Assembly (NCBI RefSeq): GCF_000622145.1
Contig: NZ_JHWH01000023.1
Location: 1 to 64,000 of the forward strand
Source of the DNA: Paracoccus yeei ATCC BAA-599
GTDB taxonomy: Bacteria; Pseudomonadota; Alphaproteobacteria; Rhodobacterales; Rhodobacteraceae
Direction of reading: 5' to 3'
Length of the DNA: 64,000 bases
Position 1 is the stretch's first letter. Each line of letters begins with the position of its first letter. The notes under the pieces are model-generated. The model was given only the letters and a program-made list of their open reading frames with translations, was not told the DNA's origin and did not search any database. Positions 8,733-57,114 of this stretch are shown here, in pieces. Position numbers and translations under genes: made by a program.

Positions 8733-9823
8733 TGGAGCGGATGCCGCGATGGGCCGACGTGATCCTGACGCCGCTGATCTCGCTGGCGCTGGCCTTCGCG
8801 ATCTCGGCACTGGTGATCCTGGCGATCGGCGAAAGCCCGACCGAGGCGCTGAAGGTCATGGTCGAGGGCGCGCTGGGGTCCAGCTATGGCTGGGGCTTTA
8901 CCCTGTATTACGCGACGAACTTCATCTTCACGGGGCTTGCCGTTTCGGTCGCCTACCACGCCGGCCTGTTCAACATCGGCGGCGAGGGCCAGGCGGCGAT
9001 GGGGGGCCTGGGCGTCACGCTGGTGGTCCTGGCCCTGCCCTGGCCGCATTGGGCCCTGGCCCTGCCCGCCGCGATGGTCGGGGCGGCGGGGTTCGGCGCG
9101 CTTTGGGCGCTGATCCCCGCCTGGCTGCAGGCCCGGCGCGGCAGCCATGTCGTCATCACCACGATCATGTTCAACTTCATCGCGGCGGCGGTGCTGAACT
9201 ATGTGCTGGTCAATGTGCTGCGCCCGGTGGGCAGCATGGACCCCGCCTCGGCCAGCTTTCCGGCGGCCGTGCATCTGCCGAAGCTGTCGGACATGGCGCT
9301 GGCTCTGGGCGTGACCTGGGGCAAGAACACGCCGGCGAACGTCACCTTCTTCATCGCGCTGGCCGCCTGCGTCCTGGTCTGGCTGCTGATCTGGCGCACG
9401 CGGCTGGGCTATGAGATCCGGGCCTTCGGCCGGTCCGAGCCCGCGGCGCTTTACGCCGGCATCTCTCCGCTGCGGATCACGGTCATGGCCATGGTGATCT
9501 CGGGCGCGCTGGCCGGGCTGATGGCCGTCAACACCGTCATGGGCGAGGCCGAGCGGCTGGTGCTGAACGCGGTCGAGGGCGCGGGCTTCATCGGCATCGC
9601 GGTGGCCCTGATGGGGCGCAACCACCCCCTGGGCGTGGCCCTGGCGGCGCTGCTGTTCGGGTTCCTGTACCAGGGCGGGGGCGAGCTGGCGCTGTGGACC
9701 ACCATCCCGCGCGAGTTGATCGTGGTCATCCAGGCGCTGGTGATCCTGTTCACCGGGGCCTTGGACAACATGGTGCGGATGCCGCTGGAACGGCTGTTCG
9801 CCCGCAGGCGCGGAGGGGCGTGA
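8732..9823 (+). CDS. nucleoside ABC importer permease 1
   Basis: A 363-residue integral membrane protein of the BPD_transp_2 family with about ten hydrophobic segments. AYHAGLFNIGGEGQAAMGG is the conserved cytoplasmic-loop signature of the larger permease in NupP/BmpB-type importers, and the C-terminal half has GAGFIGIAVALMGRNHPLGV. It forms the channel together with the following permease. The start is the ATG overlapping the bridging mini-frame, with GGAGG about seven bases upstream. The stop overlaps the next ATG by one base. Confidence 0.93.
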   Translation: MERMPRWADVILTPLISLALAFAISALVILAIGESPTEALKVMVEGALGSSYGWGFTLYYATNFIFTGLAVSVAYHAGLFNIGGEGQAAMGGLGVTLVVLALPWPHWALALPAAMVGAAGFGALWALIPAWLQARRGSHVVITTIMFNFIAAAVLNYVLVNVLRPVGSMDPASASFPAAVHLPKLSDMALALGVTWGKNTPANVTFFIALAACVLVWLLIWRTRLGYEIRAFGRSEPAALYAGISPLRITVMAMVISGALAGLMAVNTVMGEAERLVLNAVEGAGFIGIAVALMGRNHPLGVALAALLFGFLYQGGGELALWTTIPRELIVVIQALVILFTGALDNMVRMPLERLFARRRGGA

Positions 9824-10788
9824 TGGATTTCCCGACGGTCATCCAGATCCTCGACAGTGCCGTGCGGCTGATGGTGCCCCTGCTGCTGGCCTGCCTGGCC
9901 GGGCTTTATTCCGAACGGGCGGGCGTGTTCGACATCGGGCTGGAGGGCAAGATGCTGATGGCGGCCTTTGCCTCGGGCTCGGTCGCCTATGCGACGGGCA
10001 GCGCCTGGGCAGGGCTGGCGGCGGGCATCGCAGGGTCGCTGGTGCTGTCGCTGATCCACGGGCTCGCCTCGATCACCTTCCGGGGCAACCAGCTGATCTC
10101 GGGCGTGGCGATCAATTTCCTGGCCTCGGGGTTGACGGTGCTGCTGGGGCAAAGGATCTTTGCGCTTGGCGGGCGCACCCCGTCGCTTGACGGCACGGCG
10201 CGGTTCACGGAGATTACCCTGCCCTTCGCCGAGGCGCTGCGGCCGGTGCCGGTGGTCGGGCGCATCTACGCCGACCTCATCTCGGGCCATTCGGTCCTGG
10301 TCTATCTGGGCCTTGCGATCGTGCCGCTGACCTGGTGGGTGCTTTACCGCACACGCTTTGGCCTGCGCCTGCGGGCGGTCGGCGAAAACCCGGCCTCGGT
10401 CGACACCGCCGGCGTGTCGGTAACGCGGCTGCGCTACGGCGCCGTGCTGATCTGCGGCGTACTCTGCGGCATCGCGGGCGCCTATCTTGCCACCGCCATC
10501 TCGGCTGGCTTCGTCAAGGAGATGACGGCCGGGCGCGGCTTCATCGCGCTGGCGGCCCTGATCTTTGCCAAGTGGCGGCCCTGGGGCGCGCTTGGCGCCA
10601 CCTTCCTGTTCGGGCTGATGGAGGCGGTGGCGAACCGCTATCCGAACCTGGACCTGGGGATCGTCACCATCCCGTCGATGTTCATGACCGCGCTGCCCTA
10701 TATCCTGACCGTCATCATCCTGGCAGGCTTTGTCGGCCGCGCCATCCCGCCCCGCGCCGGAGGAGAGCCCTATGTCAAGGAACGCTGA
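9823..10788 (+). CDS. nucleoside ABC importer permease 2
   Basis: A 321-residue hydrophobic protein, the smaller partner of the permease pair (NupQ type). SERAGVFDIGLEGKMLMAAF is its signature loop, and later MTAGRGFIALAALIFAKW aligns with the matching loop of sugar and nucleoside permeases. About eight to nine membrane segments are visible. It starts on the last base of the first permease stop, and its own 3' end overlaps the phosphorylase gene by 17 bases. All four transporter parts (binding protein, duplicated ATPase, two permeases) are therefore present and in the usual order. Confidence 0.93.
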   Translation: MDFPTVIQILDSAVRLMVPLLLACLAGLYSERAGVFDIGLEGKMLMAAFASGSVAYATGSAWAGLAAGIAGSLVLSLIHGLASITFRGNQLISGVAINFLASGLTVLLGQRIFALGGRTPSLDGTARFTEITLPFAEALRPVPVVGRIYADLISGHSVLVYLGLAIVPLTWWVLYRTRFGLRLRAVGENPASVDTAGVSVTRLRYGAVLICGVLCGIAGAYLATAISAGFVKEMTAGRGFIALAALIFAKWRPWGALGATFLFGLMEAVANRYPNLDLGIVTIPSMFMTALPYILTVIILAGFVGRAIPPRAGGEPYVKER

Positions 10789-11575
10789 GCTTGTCCGCCT
10801 GATCCGCGACCGCGCGGGCGCGGAGGCGCCGGAATTCGGGCTGATCCTGGGGTCGGGCCTGGGGCACCTGTCGGCGGCGGTCGAAGGCGTGGCGATCCCC
10901 TATGCCGACCTGCCGGGCTTTCCGCAGGCCGGCGTCTCGGGCCATGTGCCGCGGCTGGCCATCGGCCGGCTGGAGGGCCGTCGCGTCGCCGTCCTGGGCG
11001 GGCGGGCGCATTACTACGAAACGGGCCGCGCCGATGCGATGCGCCCGGCGCTCGAGGTCCTGAAGGCGCTGGGATGCCCGCGCCTGATCCTGACGAACGC
11101 GGCCGGCAGCCTGCGGCCCGACCTGCCGCCCGGATCGCTGATGCTGCTGTCCGACCACATCGCCTTTGCCGGCACCAACCCCCTGATCGGCGAGCCCAGC
11201 GAGGCCCGCTTCGTCCCGATGACAGACGCTCACGACCCCGGCCTGCGCCACGCGCTGATGGCGGCGGCCGGCGCCGAGGGGCTGGACCTGCCCGAAGGGG
11301 TCTATTGCTGGTTTTCGGGCCCCAGCTTCGAAACCCCGGCCGAGATCCGGGCCGCCCGGGTGCTGGGCGCCGATGCGGTCGGCATGTCCACGGTCCCCGA
11401 GGTGATCCTGGCCCGCTTCCTGGGTCTGCGCTGCGCGGCGATCTCGGTCATCACGAACATGGGGGCGGGACTGTCGGACGAAGCGATCAGCCACGACCAC
11501 ACCAAGGCCATGGCCCCCCTGGGCGCGGCCAAGCTGGAACGGGTGCTGCGGCGCTTTCTGCGCGACAGCGCCTGA
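10772..11575 (+). CDS. purine-nucleoside phosphorylase
   Basis: A 267-residue enzyme of the trimeric PNP/MTAP family. The motifs are clear: GLILGSGLGHL at the N-terminus (phosphate site), VLGGRAHYYETG, LTNAAGSL, FSGPSFETPAEIRAARVLG, GADAVGMSTVPEVILAR and ISVITNMGAGLS. It splits purine nucleosides with phosphate into free base and (deoxy)ribose 1-phosphate in the cytoplasm. Position at the end of the nucleoside importer operon, overlapping the second permease by 17 bases, says that imported nucleosides are cleaved straight away for salvage and carbon use. The ATG at 10772 has GGAGGA just upstream. Guanosine/inosine preference is likely from the family but not proven by sequence. Confidence 0.93.
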   Translation: MSRNAELVRLIRDRAGAEAPEFGLILGSGLGHLSAAVEGVAIPYADLPGFPQAGVSGHVPRLAIGRLEGRRVAVLGGRAHYYETGRADAMRPALEVLKALGCPRLILTNAAGSLRPDLPPGSLMLLSDHIAFAGTNPLIGEPSEARFVPMTDAHDPGLRHALMAAAGAEGLDLPEGVYCWFSGPSFETPAEIRAARVLGADAVGMSTVPEVILARFLGLRCAAISVITNMGAGLSDEAISHDHTKAMAPLGAAKLERVLRRFLRDSA

Positions 11576-11581
11576 TCCCCG

Positions 11582-11625
11582 CGTTTCTTTCTTGTCTAAA
11601 TATCCCCGCCGGAGGCACCGGCCGC
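11582..11625 (-). repeat. dispersed intergenic repeat, copy B; provides the mnmH stop codon
   Basis: Read on the minus strand, this copy gives CCTCCGGCGGGGATATTTAG followed by ACAAGAAAGAAA. It lies between the convergent pnp and mnmH stops and runs into mnmH: its GGGGATATTTAG encodes the last residues and the TAG stop of that gene. The TTTCTTTCTTGT end sits just behind the pnp stop and could help end transcription, though there is no strong hairpin of its own. Confidence 0.65.
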
Positions 11626-12690
11626 GCCGCCGGCGCCGGGCTGCCAGTCGAGCCCGGCCAGAGCCGCCTCGACCCGATCCGCCGCCGCGTCCAGATCGTC
11701 CAGACCCCCAAGCGCCACCACCCGGCCGCGGCCGTCGTCGTGGCGGGCGCGGTGCCGGTCATAGCGGGGGTCGTAATGGTCGCGCATCAGCGCGGCGGAA
11801 AGCCCCGCCCAGTCGCGGGCATCGACCAGACGCAGCCAGCCCTCGATCCGCTCGGCGGGGTGGACCGGGCGCAGGCTGTTCACGATGCCGGCCACGCGCT
11901 CGGGGTCGGCGGCGGCCTCGGCATAGCTTTGCGCGGTATAGGCGGCGCGAGCCTCGACCGGGACGGCAAGCCGGATGCGCGGGGCGGCGATGATGGCCTG
12001 CCAGATGCCGCGCGGCAGGTTCAGGTCGCCGATGCGCGAACTTTCGGCCTCGACCAGCACGGGGCGCGCAGGGTCCAGCGCCTCAAGCGCCATGGCCAGC
12101 CGGCCCTCGAACAGCTTCTGGCCGGGCTGGCCGCCGGGCATGGCGCCGAACAGGCTGCCGCGATGGTTCGCCAGCCCCTCCAGGTCGATGACCTGATGGC
12201 CGCGGGCGGCAAGGCGGTGCAGGATCTCGGTCTTGGCGCTGCCGGTATTGCCGTCCAGCACCACCACGGGCGAGCGGACCGGCGCCGTGACGCGCGCGAC
12301 CACCAGCGCGCGCCAGGCCTTGTAGCCGCCTTCGATCCGGCCGACACGCCAGCCGATCTGGCCCAGGATGGTGGCGAAGGCGCCGGACCGCTGCCCGCCG
12401 CGCCAGCAATAGATCAGCGGCCGCCAGCCGCCGCCGTGACCCGAGAGCGGCCCTGCGATGTGGCGCGCCACATTGGCCGCGACCAGCGCGCCGCCCAGCT
12501 TGCGCGCGTCAAAGGGGGAAACCTGCTTGTAGATCGTGCCGACCCGGGCCCGTTCGTCGTCCGACAGCACCGGCAGGCTGACGGCGCCCGGCAGGTGATC
12601 CTCGGCATACTCCGAGGGAGAGCGGCCGTCGATGATGGTGTCGAACCCGGCCAGCGCCGGGTCCGACAGCGATGTCAGCCGGATGTCCAA
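11596..12690 (-). CDS. mnmH: tRNA 2-selenouridine/geranyl-2-thiouridine synthase MnmH
   Basis: 364 residues in two domains. The N-terminal rhodanese domain (about 1-125) carries the catalytic cysteine in IYCWRGGQRSGA. A P-loop domain follows with LDGNTGSAKTE (G-x4-GKT-like, here GSAKT as usual for this family) and a Walker-B-like stretch PVLVEAESSRIGDL. MnmH converts 2-thiouridine at tRNA wobble position 34 to geranylated and selenium forms; no selD is in the window. The start is a TTG directly abutting the TGA of the L,D-transpeptidase gene, so the two are likely co-transcribed. The last codons and the stop lie within a dispersed repeat, so the C-terminus (AGASGGDI) is repeat-derived. Confidence 0.93.
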   Translation of the reverse strand: MDIRLTSLSDPALAGFDTIIDGRSPSEYAEDHLPGAVSLPVLSDDERARVGTIYKQVSPFDARKLGGALVAANVARHIAGPLSGHGGGWRPLIYCWRGGQRSGAFATILGQIGWRVGRIEGGYKAWRALVVARVTAPVRSPVVVLDGNTGSAKTEILHRLAARGHQVIDLEGLANHRGSLFGAMPGGQPGQKLFEGRLAMALEALDPARPVLVEAESSRIGDLNLPRGIWQAIIAAPRIRLAVPVEARAAYTAQSYAEAAADPERVAGIVNSLRPVHPAERIEGWLRLVDARDWAGLSAALMRDHYDPRYDRHRARHDDGRGRVVALGGLDDLDAAADRVEAALAGLDWQPGAGGAAGASGGDI

Positions 12691-32388: not shown

Positions 32389-33060
32389 CCCCAGCCGCAG
32401 CGCAAAGGCGCGCACCTCGGCCTCGTCCCCCGCCGCGAGCGAGCGCAGCAGCGTCGCCTGGCTGCGCAGGATCGGCTCGCCCCCGATGATCTTGAGGTGG
32501 TTGGCGCGCAGGGTTTCCCCCGACGAGGTGATGTCGGCGATGGCCTCGGCGGTCAGGTTCGCGACCGTGCCTTCGGTCGCGCCCTGGCTGTCGACCAGCT
32601 GGTAATCGGCGACCTCCTCGGCCGAAAGCCAGGCCCGCACCAGCCGGTGATACTTGGTGGCGATGCGCAGGCGAAAGCCATGTTCGGCGCGGAAGTCGCG
32701 GGCGATGGTGGCGAAATCGTCCAGCGTCTCGCAGTCGGCCCAGCAGGCCGGCACGGCCAGGATCAGGTCGGCGTGGCCGAAGCCCATCGGCGCCAGTTCC
32801 TCGACATGGCTGCGCCAGCCGGCCAGCTTCTCGCGGATCAGGTCGGTGCCGGTGACGCCCAGGTGGATGCGCCCGGCGCTGAGTTCGCGCGGGATCTCGC
32901 CCGCCGACAACAGCACCAGCGCGACATTCTCGGCCCCCTCGACGCGGCCGGCATATTCGCGGTCCGACCCGGCGCGCGACAGCTGCACGCCGCGTTCGGC
33001 GAACCAGTCGAAGGTCTGCTCCATCAGCCGCCCCTTGGACGGCACCCCCAGCCGGATCAT
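32383..33060 (-). CDS. hisG: ATP phosphoribosyltransferase, catalytic subunit (short form)
   Basis: 225 residues, the short HisG form lacking the regulatory C-terminal domain and therefore needing HisZ. Blocks: [48 protein letters not shown] and the PRPP-binding [20 protein letters not shown]. It carries out the first step of histidine synthesis. It starts within the hisZ stop (ATGA overlap). It is cotranscribed with hisS and hisZ. The 3' end overlaps ruvX tail to tail. Confidence 0.95.
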
Positions 33061-34124
33061 GAAAGGCCCCCGAGTTCATGGACCAGACCGGGGCGGATGA
33101 TGCCCCCCACCGCAGGGATCGAGCGGCCCTGCGCCTGCCCCAGCACGGCGGCCAGCGCGTCATAGCGCCCGCCCGAGGCGACCGGCGGCCAGTCGGCACG
33201 GCCCGGCGCCACGAAGCTGAAGGTCATGCCGTCGTAATATTCCATCGTGTGCCGGCCGTGGCTGGCGTCAAAGCGGATGGCGCCCACGTCGATGCCGCGC
33301 GCGGACAGCAGCGCCAGGTTGCGCGCCAGCCGGTCCACCGCCTCGGCGATGTCGGGGATTTCCGTCGCCAGCGCGCGCAAGTCGGCCAGCGCCTGCGGCG
33401 CCGGGGCGTCGACGGTGAACAGGCGCTGCAACCGTTCGGCCCAGATGGCCGGCAGCGGCGTCTCGGCGGCGTCGGCCTGAAGCCGGGCGATGCGGGCCTG
33501 CATTTCCTCGCGCGAGCGCAGGCCGTTCCAGGGCGCGGCCGACGCCTCGAACCGGCGCGGCGCGCTGGGCGCTGCGAACCGGGCCAGCGCCTTGGCAAAG
33601 CGCTTCGGCCGCCAGATGTGATGCAGCAGCGCCGCACGGCGCGCGCCCGACAGGGGCAGCGCGCGCACCGCATCCATCAGCAGGTCCATGTCCCCCATGG
33701 TCGCCTGCAAATCCAACGGCTTGAGGATGGAATGGAACAGCGCGAAGACCTCGGCGTCGGCATCCGGGTCGCGGGCGAACAGCTCGAACCCCGCCTGAAG
33801 GTATTCGTTGTCGCGCGGATGTTCGGGCCGGGTGTCGCCGTGGTCCTGCTTGCGGAACACCTCGCCCAGGTAGCAATAGCGCGCCGGCTCGGCGCCGTTC
33901 CGCATGTGCATCTGCACCACCGGCACGGTGAAGTCGGGCCGCAGCATCATCTCGCCCCGGATCGGGTCCTGCGTGACATAGGCGCGGGCGCGGATATCCT
34001 CGCCGTAAAGGTCCAGCAGCGTTTCCGCCTCGAGCAGGATGTCGGGCGCGACCTCGACGGCGCCAGCGGCGCGGAAGGCCGCCAGGATCTGCTGGCCGAT
34101 GGCCTGTTTGGCGCGCTTGGTCAT
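33057..34124 (-). CDS. hisZ: ATP phosphoribosyltransferase regulatory subunit HisZ
   Basis: 355 residues, a HisRS-like class II fold without anticodon-binding domain. [17 protein letters not shown] and [12 protein letters not shown] correspond to motif 1/2 regions; the synthetase histidine-binding motif is altered ([18 protein letters not shown]), as expected for a regulatory paralogue. It forms an octamer with HisG and gives feedback control by histidine. It starts within the hisS stop and overlaps hisG by four bases. G+C returns to the normal high level right at its start, in contrast to the 3' end of hisS. Confidence 0.94.
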
Positions 34125-35656
34125 TTTCTATCCAGCAACTTGGCTCGCTCTTGTTTGCGCCACCCGATCGTCCGCTCAAGCCCTTGAACAGCCTCAACCA
34201 GCTTGTCGCGAGATACTTCAATCTGTGTTGGATGGGACTTCCATTCCTCGTGGCTCAAATTGGTATTTGATACAATTGCCCCGAGGTGAAGATCCTTTAT
34301 CTGGAGCACGCCGCGCTCAGCTTCGTCCGCACCTTGAATAACAGCGATTTCTGAACCACGCTTGTCGGCATATTTCAACTGGTTGCCGAAGTTCTTGGGG
34401 TTGCCCAGATAGACCTCGGCCCGGATGCCGGCGGCGCGCAATTCCGCCGCCATGGCCTGATAATCGGCCATGCGGTCGCGGTCCATGACGGTGACGACGA
34501 CCGGGCCCGGCTCGGTCCCGCCCATCAGCCCCTTGGCGCGCAGGGCGGCCAGCAGACGGTCGACGCCGATGGAAACCCCGGTCGCGGGCACCTTTTGCCC
34601 GGTGAAGCGTTCCACGAGGCCATCGTAACGCCCGCCGCCGGCGACCGAACCGAACTGGCGCTTGCGGCCTTTTTCGTCCAGGATTTCAAAGGTCAATTCG
34701 GCCTCGAACACCGGGCCGGTATAATAGCCAAGGCCGCGCACGATCGAGGGGTCGATGATCGCCCGATCCTCGGCCACGCCCATCGCTGCAAGCATGTCGG
34801 CGATCTGGGCCAGTTCCTCGACGCCTTCTGCCCCCACGGCCGAGGCGCCGACGGCGGCGCGCAGATTGCCCAGCGTTTCCGCGTTATTGGCGCCTTTTGA
34901 GGTCAGGAAGGCCAGCACCGGCCCGGCCTGTTCGGGGCTGAGCCCCACGCCCTCGATAAAGGCGCCGCTGTCGTCCTTGCGGCCCGAGGTCAGCAGCTGG
35001 CGCACGCCCTCCTCGCCGACCTTGTCGAACTTGTCGATGGTGCGCAGCACGTCGTCGGCGGGCTTGCCCTGATCCACGCCCATGGATTCCAGGATGCCGT
35101 TCAGCACCTTGCGGTTGTTGATGCGGATCAGGTAATCGCCGCGGGCGATTCCGGCATGTTCCAGCGCCGCCGCCAGCATGGCGCAGATCTCGGCATCCGC
35201 GGCGACCGAGGCGGAGCCCACGGTATCGGCATCGCATTGATAGAACTGGCGGAACCGGCCGGGCCCCGGCTTTTCGTTGCGCCAGACCGGGCCCATGGCA
35301 TAGCGGCGATAGGGGCTGGGCAGATCGTTTCGGAACTGCGCCGCGACGCGCGCGAGCGGCGCGGTCAGGTCATAGCGCAGCGCCAGCCAGTCGCCGGCGC
35401 CACCGCCCGGAACGTCGGCTTCCTGCCAGGCGAAGACGCCGGCGTTCGGGCGGTCCACGTCAGGCAGGAATTTCCCGAGCGCCTCGACGGTCTCCACCGC
35501 GCTGGTTTCCAGGGGATCGAAGCCGTGGCGATGATAGATCTCGGCGATGCGGTCCAGCATCTGCTTGCGTTCGGTGACGTCCGCGCCGAAATAGTCACGG
35601 AACCCCTTGGGTGTTTCGGCCTTGGGACGGGGCTGTTTCTTTTGATCTTTCGCCAT
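34121..35656 (-). CDS. hisS: histidyl-tRNA synthetase
   Basis: 511 residues, class II. Motif 2 is [20 protein letters not shown] with FRQFYQCD, the His-binding block is [20 protein letters not shown], and motif 3 is [13 protein letters not shown]. The C-terminal anticodon-binding domain starts around residue 410. From about residue 424 (nt ~34385) to the stop, base composition falls to about 52% G+C, and codons rare in neighbours appear (ATA, GTA, TCA, AGA, ATT, CAA). The C-terminus ends with an extra tail ([18 protein letters not shown]). The frame is intact, so the enzyme is probably functional. It heads the hisS-hisZ-hisG unit. Confidence 0.96.
34125..34385 (-). other. low-GC patch within the 3' end of hisS
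   Basis: Counting 34141-34380 gives 124 G+C in 240 bases, about 52%, against about two thirds on both sides. The patch stays in frame, contains codons avoided elsewhere in the window, and stops at the hisS/hisZ overlap. This is the look of a gene segment replaced by recombination with a less GC-rich homologue. Confidence 0.75.
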
Positions 35657-55063: not shown

Positions 55064-56433
55064 AACAGGGCGCTGAAATAGTCGCCGGGCCGGAACGGTT
55101 TCCCTTGGTTGCCGGCTTTGCTGCCCGGCCGTGCGCTTTTTGTTCTGAAACGCGTGTGTGTGACTGACGCGGTTTTTCGTCATCATGCGGCCAACAGCCG
55201 AGGCAGTCGCGCGAGGTTGTTGGCAGTCATCGTCAGGATGAAGCGGGAACGCACCCGTTCGATGCCCCGATAGACGGTCTGGGCCATGCCACCGACGGTT
55301 TTGGCCCAGCCAAATGCCTCTTCGATCCGTTTGCGGTGTTTGATCGACAGGGAGTAACCCTCGTGCCGGGTGGTGCGGCCGTCGATCGCTGAATATCTCG
55401 ATTTCTGCGCGATATGGGGTGTTATGCAGGCTTTTCGCAGGTCGGCGACGAACTCTGCCGCGTCGAACCCCTTGTCGGCGCCGAGCGTCAACTGTCGGGT
55501 CGAGCCGGGTGAATGGCGGTGGATCATGTCCAGTGCGGCACGCCGTTCCGCGTGACCGTCGGCCTGCGTAAGGTCGCCCTGCACGATGAGCCCATTCCGG
55601 TTCTCCATCAGCGCATGCCCGATGAAGCACAGCATCGCGCCGGTGCCGGGGGATTTCTTGTAGAGCCGCGCGTCGGGGTCGGTCGTCGAGGCATGGGTGG
55701 CATTGGAGCGCTTCTGGCCCCGGAAATCGACTTCGGCATTGCGGTTCTGGTGGGTGGGGCGGGACATCGGGTCGGTCTCGGACGGTGTCGGCTCAGGGTG
55801 GTCTTCGGTGGGGCTGTCTGGACCGGGCGGGCCGCCCGGATCGTCGTCAGACGGCGTGTCGGTCGCCTTCGGCTGGAAGCTCTTCATGGAGGCCCAGGCC
55901 TTCACAAGTGTGCCATCGACCGAGAAGTGGTCGTCCGACAAGAGCGGCGCGACCTCGCGATGGGCCAGGATCGCTGCCATCACCTTGCGCGACATCCCGG
56001 TGGTCAGTAGCCGGTCGCGGTTCTTGGTGAAGACGGTCGGCACCCAGACGGCGTCGTCAATCCCGAGGCCGACGAACCAGCGGAACAAGAGGTTATACTG
56101 CATCTGTTCCATCAACTGCCGCGCGGAGCGGACCGAGAACAGGATCTGGATCAGGCTCGCCCGGATCAGCCGTTCCGGCGGGATCGAGGGGCGGCCGAAA
56201 TCGGTGTAAAGCGCCTCGAACTCGCCATCCAGGCTGGCCAGCGCGTCGTTCACCACCTGCCGGATCTTGCGCAACGGATGCCGCGCGGGGATGCGCGCCT
56301 CCAGGTCCACATAGCTGAACAGCGACCCGCTCGCCTCGTCCGTCCCGCGCATCATAACCCCCGCCGTTATCATGCCGACGGTGAATCATGTTCTCAAACC
56401 ACTGTCGAGGCAGGACTATTTCAGCGGCCCGTT
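55064..56433. mobile_element. IS5-family insertion sequence, complete
   Basis: The element is bounded by imperfect 20-bp inverted repeats at 55064-55083 and 56414-56433, sharing the core CGCTGAAATAGTC, and holds one transposase gene on the minus strand. Total length is about 1370 bp. Flanks show TAA on both sides but no convincing longer target duplication. The left flank is the edd 3' region and the right flank an IS66 transposase remnant, so the ends are probably not from one original target. Insertion may have been accompanied by a deletion. Confidence 0.85.
55183..56355 (-). CDS. IS5-family transposase
   Basis: 390 residues. The N-terminal DUF772-type domain has [20 protein letters not shown] and [20 protein letters not shown]. 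Catalytic DDE residues are in [22 protein letters not shown] and [16 protein letters not shown] (the Y-R-E-K type signature). A Pro/Asp/Thr-rich insert ([20 protein letters not shown]) sits between the first and second acids. The frame is unbroken, so the element may be active. ATG at 56355 is preferred because GGCGGGGGTT lies upstream; an ATG six codons earlier (56373) is the alternative. Confidence 0.88.
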
Positions 56434-56502
56434 AAGCCTTGGCTGGAGGTCCAGCTCTCCCGCATCCCGCAGAAATCCCAACTCGCCGAGGACATCCGCT
56501 AC
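56434..56502 (+). pseudogene. IS66-family transposase remnant
   Basis: Directly behind the right IS5 inverted repeat the + frame reads KPWLEVQLSRIPQKSQLAED then IRY, which is the conserved stretch of IS66 (TnpC) transposases before their IRYALSRW block. Similarity stops after IRY and the frame closes at 56529. Only about 23 codons remain; both ends are lost. Confidence 0.6.
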
Positions 56503-57114
56503 ACGGAACTTCGTCAGCTGGAGTCATGACCTGTTTCTCTCGTTAGCCTTTCGCGTGTCTGGATGTTTCCCAAAAAATCGAAATTGCAACACAGCGTTTC
56601 CGACCGCACGTCAGAAACAATTCCTTACAAATCTATGCGTGCGCCCGAGTGATTGTCGGGCCACATGCTTGTGGCAGCAAGAAGCAGTTCGAGAACTGAT
56701 AACTGGATATGCAACCATGGCACGCCAAACCATTGCCGGCACCGCACGACAGGTCGCGCTTTATGCGCCGCTCTTGTTGAGCCTGATTAAGGCTGGCAAT
56801 GAAAGACCGGCCTTGCGACTGGGTCATGTAAAAGGCGGCCTTCTCGAACTGAGGTCGAGCTTGGTAGACACGCTGCAAAGTGTCCGCTTGATCTGGTTCG
56901 TCATGTCGCTGGTGCTCAGCGTCGAGGCCTGCGCGCTGATCGGCTGGGCCTTCGGCCATATCAAGCGCGCTGCTGCCATAAGCGTATTGCTGCCTGTTCT
57001 GGATCTTGTTGTTGTGGAACGTGACAGAGGACGAGGATGAACCTTTGCTTCCGATCGGGGCGCAACCTGCAGCAGGTTGAACCTTGCGCGCCACCTCTCG
57101 ACCGAGGATTACTC
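56503..57114. other. low-GC interval between IS remnants and efflux genes
   Basis: About 600 bases with clearly lower G+C than the chromosome average; for example 56581-56640 has 26 G+C in 60. I see no convincing regulator gene (no TetR or MarR helix-turn-helix). The only long + frame is the doubtful membrane reading at 56717-57040. The interval presumably holds the promoter of the efflux operon and debris of former mobile DNA. Confidence 0.5.
56717..57040 (+). CDS. doubtful hypothetical membrane protein
   Basis: 107 codons, starting MARQTIAGTARQVALYAP. Hydrophobic stretches (LYAPLLLSLI, LIWFVMSLVLSVEACALIGW, AAAISVLLPVLDLVVV) would give two or three membrane segments. No ribosome site, no family recognised, and composition unlike the neighbours. 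An equally long frame exists on the other strand, so this may be chance. Listed because it fills a gap in front of the efflux genes and ends 75 bases before the adaptor start. Confidence 0.25.
   Translation: MARQTIAGTARQVALYAPLLLSLIKAGNERPALRLGHVKGGLLELRSSLVDTLQSVRLIWFVMSLVLSVEACALIGWAFGHIKRAAAISVLLPVLDLVVVERDRGRG

Follow-up and report, generated by a model that had tools for sequence, protein, structure and literature searches.

Introduction

Mosaic genes arise by recombination within a gene, whether homologous or illegitimate and homology-facilitated, and are well known. The exchange of a gene end is also familiar from icd, where the element e14 provides an alternative 3′ end and phage 21 likewise replaces this part of the gene. 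Here we describe a hisS gene of Paracoccus yeei ATCC BAA-599 with a 3′ end of low GC content that is foreign both by composition and by phylogeny, and compare it with the same locus in other members of the genus.

Results

The hisS–hisZ locus and its product

In the window, by which we mean the whole stretch of 64,000 nucleotides that was analysed, hisS (34121..35656, minus strand) codes for a histidine–tRNA ligase of 511 residues. It is followed directly by hisZ (33057..34124, minus strand), the gene of the ATP phosphoribosyltransferase regulatory subunit, which is native in composition from its start onward. As expected of a HisRS, the protein exceeds the curated cut-offs for the core and the anticodon-binding domain, scoring 384.2 bits against TIGR00442 (cut-off 286.75), 131.6 against PF13393 (cut-off 25) and 43.2 against PF03129 (cut-off 21), with the Pfam core at residues 18–368 and the anticodon domain at 386–491. 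It differs from the family in that its last 79 residues are foreign and that it exceeds the usual Paracoccus HisS of ~494 residues by 17, with one residue inserted internally and 16 added at the C-terminus. By these profiles its identity as a HisRS is kept, with what is predicted to be a new end to the anticodon domain and a longer last helix. As the genome of the window contains a single hisS match, this is presumably the enzyme that aminoacylates tRNA-His. An AlphaFold model based on eight sequences was poor overall (mean pLDDT 56.8), the last helix, residues 483–510, being among its better parts.

Composition and phylogeny of the 3′ end

A preliminary description of this DNA had proposed that hisS is foreign-looking at its 3′ end exactly up to hisZ, with ~52% G+C in the last ~85 codons. 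The GC is indeed ~0.52 over the final quarter kilobase of hisS and rises again in hisZ. From codon 433 to the stop (codons 433–511; 34124..34360, minus strand) the GC is 0.51 and the GC3 0.50, against a GC3 of 0.85 over the final 900 nt of the native part (codons 1–432; 34361..35656, minus strand). Expressed as a 3′-end contrast, the GC of the last 258 nt compared with that of the preceding 900 nt, the value for hisS is −0.169, the lowest among 25 gene-like ORFs, all 900 nt or longer, selected in the 64 kb by our own filter; the remaining 24 have a mean of +0.002 (sd 0.037) and a lowest value of −0.093. The 258-bp GC falls to 0.53 or below at only two places in the window, the end of hisS and 56381–56828. 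The second of these adjoins what by eye appears to be an IS transposase. The upstream part of hisS and hisZ are typical in composition, as had been stated. The codons ATA, GTA, TCA and AGA, said to be otherwise avoided, are enriched as claimed, although in small numbers, occurring 1, 2, 2 and 1 times respectively in the last 86 codons and 0, 0, 1 and 0 times in the preceding 425.

The edge itself had to be moved. It had been placed near 34385, whereas divergence from the near relatives begins ~25 bp further inside, at codon 433 (34360), leaving 79 codons foreign. The AT-rich codons just before codon 433 are native and present in the near relatives too, and TTGAAATATGCCGACAAGCG, immediately left of the foreign segment, is common to relatives with native ends. 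The 15-residue stretch coded by 34361..34405 (minus strand) is near-identical between the window and its native relatives, and the left crossover probably lies in or to the left of it. The foreign piece covers residues 433–491 of the anticodon-binding domain, a little over half of it, together with the longer C-terminus; it is thus part of a domain with an extension rather than the domain-sized piece first suggested.

The nearest row to the upstream part of the window hisS comes from a Paracoccus with a native tail (97% identity over 399 columns), and the upstream tree places it among Paracoccus. The tail, on the other hand, groups with two other low-GC tails, including that of P. ferrooxidans NCCB 100066 (locus L053), at 99/95 support, and a constraint joining it to the native tails of its relatives in the upstream tree was rejected (AU p = 0.0004). 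Similarly, the tails of L053 and P. versutus DSM 17099 (L054) could not be forced together with those of P. versutus UW1 (L055) and L006 (AU p = 0.002). These tests used 63 columns with long branches present and groups taken from the upstream tree. Against relatives, dS in the foreign segment is high or saturated. Separate trees of the two parts, put forward in the preliminary description as a check on its claim, thus disagree, as is characteristic of a mosaic gene.

Recurrence in Paracoccus

A hisS match was present in 122 of the 125 Paracoccus genomes searched, and 120 of these, together with three named-strain records, supplied the 123 loci to which the comparison was extended; G121/L002, which has frameshifts, and G094 were left out. 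Long hisS tails of low GC are present at seven loci, in six lineages and of several kinds. The other 116 are without one, so that the segment is not a general property of Paracoccus hisS, the condition that would have told against the preliminary description. Besides the window (L001), L053 and L054, the seven comprise L169 (genome G093), L172 (G068), L135 (G054) and L027 (G003). Their contrasts lie between −0.10 and −0.19, the weakest being those of L135 (−0.11) and L027 (−0.10), while the native loci have a mean of +0.017 (sd 0.026, range −0.05 to +0.10); the cut of −0.095 was chosen post hoc with the values already known. Exactly these seven loci have at least 74 residues after the KYADK motif, compared with 62–70 in the rest. 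Separation by GC3 is imperfect, L123 with an ordinary tail of 62 residues having a value of −0.21, below the −0.18 of L135. As a control, the 3′ ends of hisZ in the same loci were examined, and a contrast beyond −0.05 was found in none of 120; the difference between hisS and hisZ in 3′-end outliers gives a Fisher p of 0.014, uncorrected for kinship.

On the upstream tree (FastTree) the low-GC tail requires at least seven changes. The tails of L053 and L054 are identical, with flanks differing at 12 of 900 and 9 of 600 positions, and because of this identity the two were counted as one lineage. The tails of the window and L053 share 76% protein identity from YADK onward. Since the tail dS of this pair is saturated while the upstream dS is 0.33, vertical inheritance of a tail shared with P. 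ferrooxidans was rejected and the two are read as separate imports whose donors were related; had one of the tails been passed on by an unsampled Paracoccus, the count would fall to five. The event in the window is one of about six such in the genus, which goes beyond anything in the preliminary description.

Among 91 further loci gathered for other genera, 86 of them with the anchor, a contrast beyond −0.08 was seen only in the window's own row. Certain genomes are represented twice in this set, which also includes a few Paracoccus and one phage and consists mainly of best matches to profiles that contain low-GC tails; in so small a sample, selected for similarity, the absence of low-GC tails from other genera is no more than suggestive. 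Long tails without low GC do occur, in L066 of the other-genus sample (79 residues, GC-rich) and in a phage contig, L190 (77 residues).

Edges of the foreign segments

In the window's codon numbering, alignments and GC profiles inspected by eye put the left edges between ~373 and 460: ~373 or earlier in L172, 404 in L169, 433 in the window and L053, 452 in L135 and 460 in L027. The right edge coincides with the hisS stop and hisZ start in all seven, these codons overlapping or lying within one nucleotide of each other in the sequences ATGA, GTGA, TGATG or TAGTATG. In the window the junction is an ATGA overlap (34121..34124, minus strand), and the foreign DNA ends there or within the first hisZ codons. 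From codon 1 or 2 onward hisZ reads as native in all seven; L169 and L027 have an additional codon, ACA or ACT, after the hisZ ATG, which suggests that the donor segment included the start codon and one codon more. Among the tabulated loci the widest gap between the two genes is found in L134 (G100), where ~277 bp with a small ORF separate them.

The clearest view of an exchange is provided by two relatives, L053 and L055: over 900 nt upstream they show 2 differences and over 600 nt downstream 5, while their tails are very different. They are identical over 150 nt to the left and 96 nt to the right of the divergent block, and the 15-residue stretch corresponding to 34361..34405 is exactly identical within the pair; upstream dS is 0.00 and tail dS saturated. 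Near-identical flanks around a divergent block are thus seen in these relatives, and for the window itself only the ambiguous assembly of P. mutanolyticus RSP-02 is as close. The C-terminal end of HisRS is more variable than the core in these alignments, as it would be if the tails were native and, in certain lineages, simply evolved fast or under a mutational bias. Against this speak the near-identity of flanks around very different tails, the sharp edges and the inserted codons, and it is almost certainly not the explanation.

Search for donors, elements and further copies

No donor was found in 394 genomes of the family, where tail matches other than the window's own reach at most 67% identity over ~50 residues, and a scan of genome contigs with the window tail gave, besides RSP-02, only matches of 53–67%. 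Tail alignments score up to 116 bits in other genomes of the family and up to 90 outside it among the class genomes sampled. As scores are higher in the Rhodobacteraceae than in the other sampled families, the donors look like Rhodobacterales, and a donor outside the family is unsupported.

A profile of the domain end gave a single match in each of the 376 family genomes (of 394) in which it matched, with up to 12 candidates scored per genome. In the search of the 125 Paracoccus genomes, 122 of which had a match, split matches in G023, G041, G057, G074 and G092 resemble one gene. These results argue against a resident element. Only RSP-02 had an extra tail, a copy of 222 bp at 99% (L032:7991–8212). 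It was at first considered a mobile hisS fragment, an idea dropped since it sits within a scrambled stretch (NZ_CP030239.1, ~2.300–2.316 Mb), made up of short segments whose matches are dispersed over the window's genome. The hisS locus of RSP-02 is, by eye, of low GC to ~codon 455 and then has a scrambled, native-like end. Both this end and the second copy are probably assembly faults, in spite of which the data suggest that the strain carries the low-GC allele. A prophage or island at hisS was also rejected, there being no duplicate ends and no element, and hisZ following directly. NZ_CP015293.1, a record of 21.9 kb listed as a plasmid of Cereibacter sphaeroides, carries hisS and is perhaps a chromosomal fragment.

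These results bear on whether elements could have attached at the end of hisS, as e14 does at icd, brought an AT-rich 3′ end and later been lost. AT-rich, longer and differing C-termini are what element-supplied ends would be expected to look like, one place hit in six lineages suggests a target, and e14 supplies the 3′ end of icd (PMC6379469). A weak match (43% identity) was also obtained to Klebsiella phage stretches annotated as histidyl-tRNA ligase or synthetase (MK416010.1 52358–52510 and MK422448.1 8292–8444), which are perhaps host flank and perhaps a prophage site near hisS. Set against this, no displaced or duplicate hisS end was seen in the 376 matching family genomes, the only Paracoccus extra being that of the scrambled RSP-02; hisZ lies within a few nucleotides of hisS at all seven loci, and no such element was recognised in viral contigs, phages or plasmid records, three of which were read. 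Replacement by elements therefore appears improbable.

Scans of viral sequences, for which the queries were the tail of the window, a further two tails, two alignments and the greater part of the window's HisS, yielded a single phage contig, L190 (IMG/VR UViG_3300025759_000462, 8735–11810). The contig is AT-rich, with UvsX, DnaB, ThyX and PhoH genes, and carries a complete, GC-richer and host-like hisS and a tyrS of the same description, two genes that lie near each other in Paracoccus. Its hisS has an ordinary tail with a short AT-rich extension. AT-rich phages that had captured a Rhodobacterales hisS might recombine its end into the host, and the full hisS of L190, with its low-GC C-terminal extension ending in TAATGA, would suit such a donor. 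It stands alone, however, in the two scans able to reach a whole hisS, which used exact short peptide patterns, and its gene is mostly GC-rich with a tail like the ordinary ones of the family; we regard phage-borne donors as doubtful, to much the same degree as elements.

Discussion

We think it probable that the 3′ end of hisS has been imported repeatedly in Paracoccus from an AT-richer hisS of unsampled Rhodobacterales type, each exchange being closed at or near the ATGA overlap. RecA would anchor the incoming hisS DNA where the gene is highly conserved, in the window at the 34361..34405 stretch, and a short shared sequence at or near the stop/start overlap would close the other end. The survivors would be those products that kept HisRS working and hisZ translated, and such survival would fix the right edge. 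One-sided homology with microhomologous closure has been documented in transformable bacteria (PMC6382021). The anchor on one side is clear and an overlap of the ATGA type fits 3–10 nt of shared sequence; the exchange may also have used homology on both sides. Of the replacement by homologous recombination first proposed, the foreign origin is supported by the trees; homology is evident at the left only, and microhomology may account for the right junction. Counting against our explanation are the failure to find a donor and the regularity of the right edge, which in six lineages exceeds what generic homologous recombination would predict.

Less securely, the DNA may have entered through gene transfer agents or by transformation. 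Uptake of Rhodobacter gene-transfer-agent DNA involves ComEC, DprA and RecA (PMC10883770). The window's genome has four GTA_TIM matches and one each to comEC and dprA; in control genomes comEC was matched in 10 of 14 and dprA in 11 of 14. These genes represent an opportunity for uptake and no proof of it. The four GTA_TIM matches, on contigs C24, C3 (two) and C1 of this genome, indicate several gene-transfer-agent-like clusters or related prophages.

It is also conceivable, if rather unlikely, that the hisS–hisZ junction is the target of a yet-unseen vector, either a mobile element or AT-rich phages with hisS ends, which time after time gives an essential synthetase a C-terminus of the vector's own; a changed HisRS end would perhaps protect against attackers of HisRS or tRNA-His. 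We know of no agent that would select for a hisS swap.

Under repeated import, part of an essential synthetase would seem to be repeatedly exchangeable in nature for the AT-rich versions of distant relatives, at the same gene boundary. Both mechanism and benefit could be tested in P. ferrooxidans NCCB 100066 and P. versutus UW1, two near-identical strains, and HisRS trees within the Paracoccus group can mix two histories. A limited search of the open literature, by title and opening of the abstract, found no publication on a hotspot at the hisS 3′ end in Paracoccus.

The locus resembles icd with e14 in having an alternative gene end with a changed C-terminus at one gene, but at hisS no element, integrase or displaced end was seen and the next gene directly follows. 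With mosaic genes it shares sharp breaks in composition and phylogeny within the gene, a conserved anchor on one side and a short shared sequence at the other edge. It differs from them in that the gene is that of an essential aminoacyl-tRNA synthetase, affected in six lineages that have one right edge in common, and from unsampled donors. Recurrent exchange with a fixed right edge at the junction of one essential gene is what this locus adds to the known cases, and it is unusual among them.
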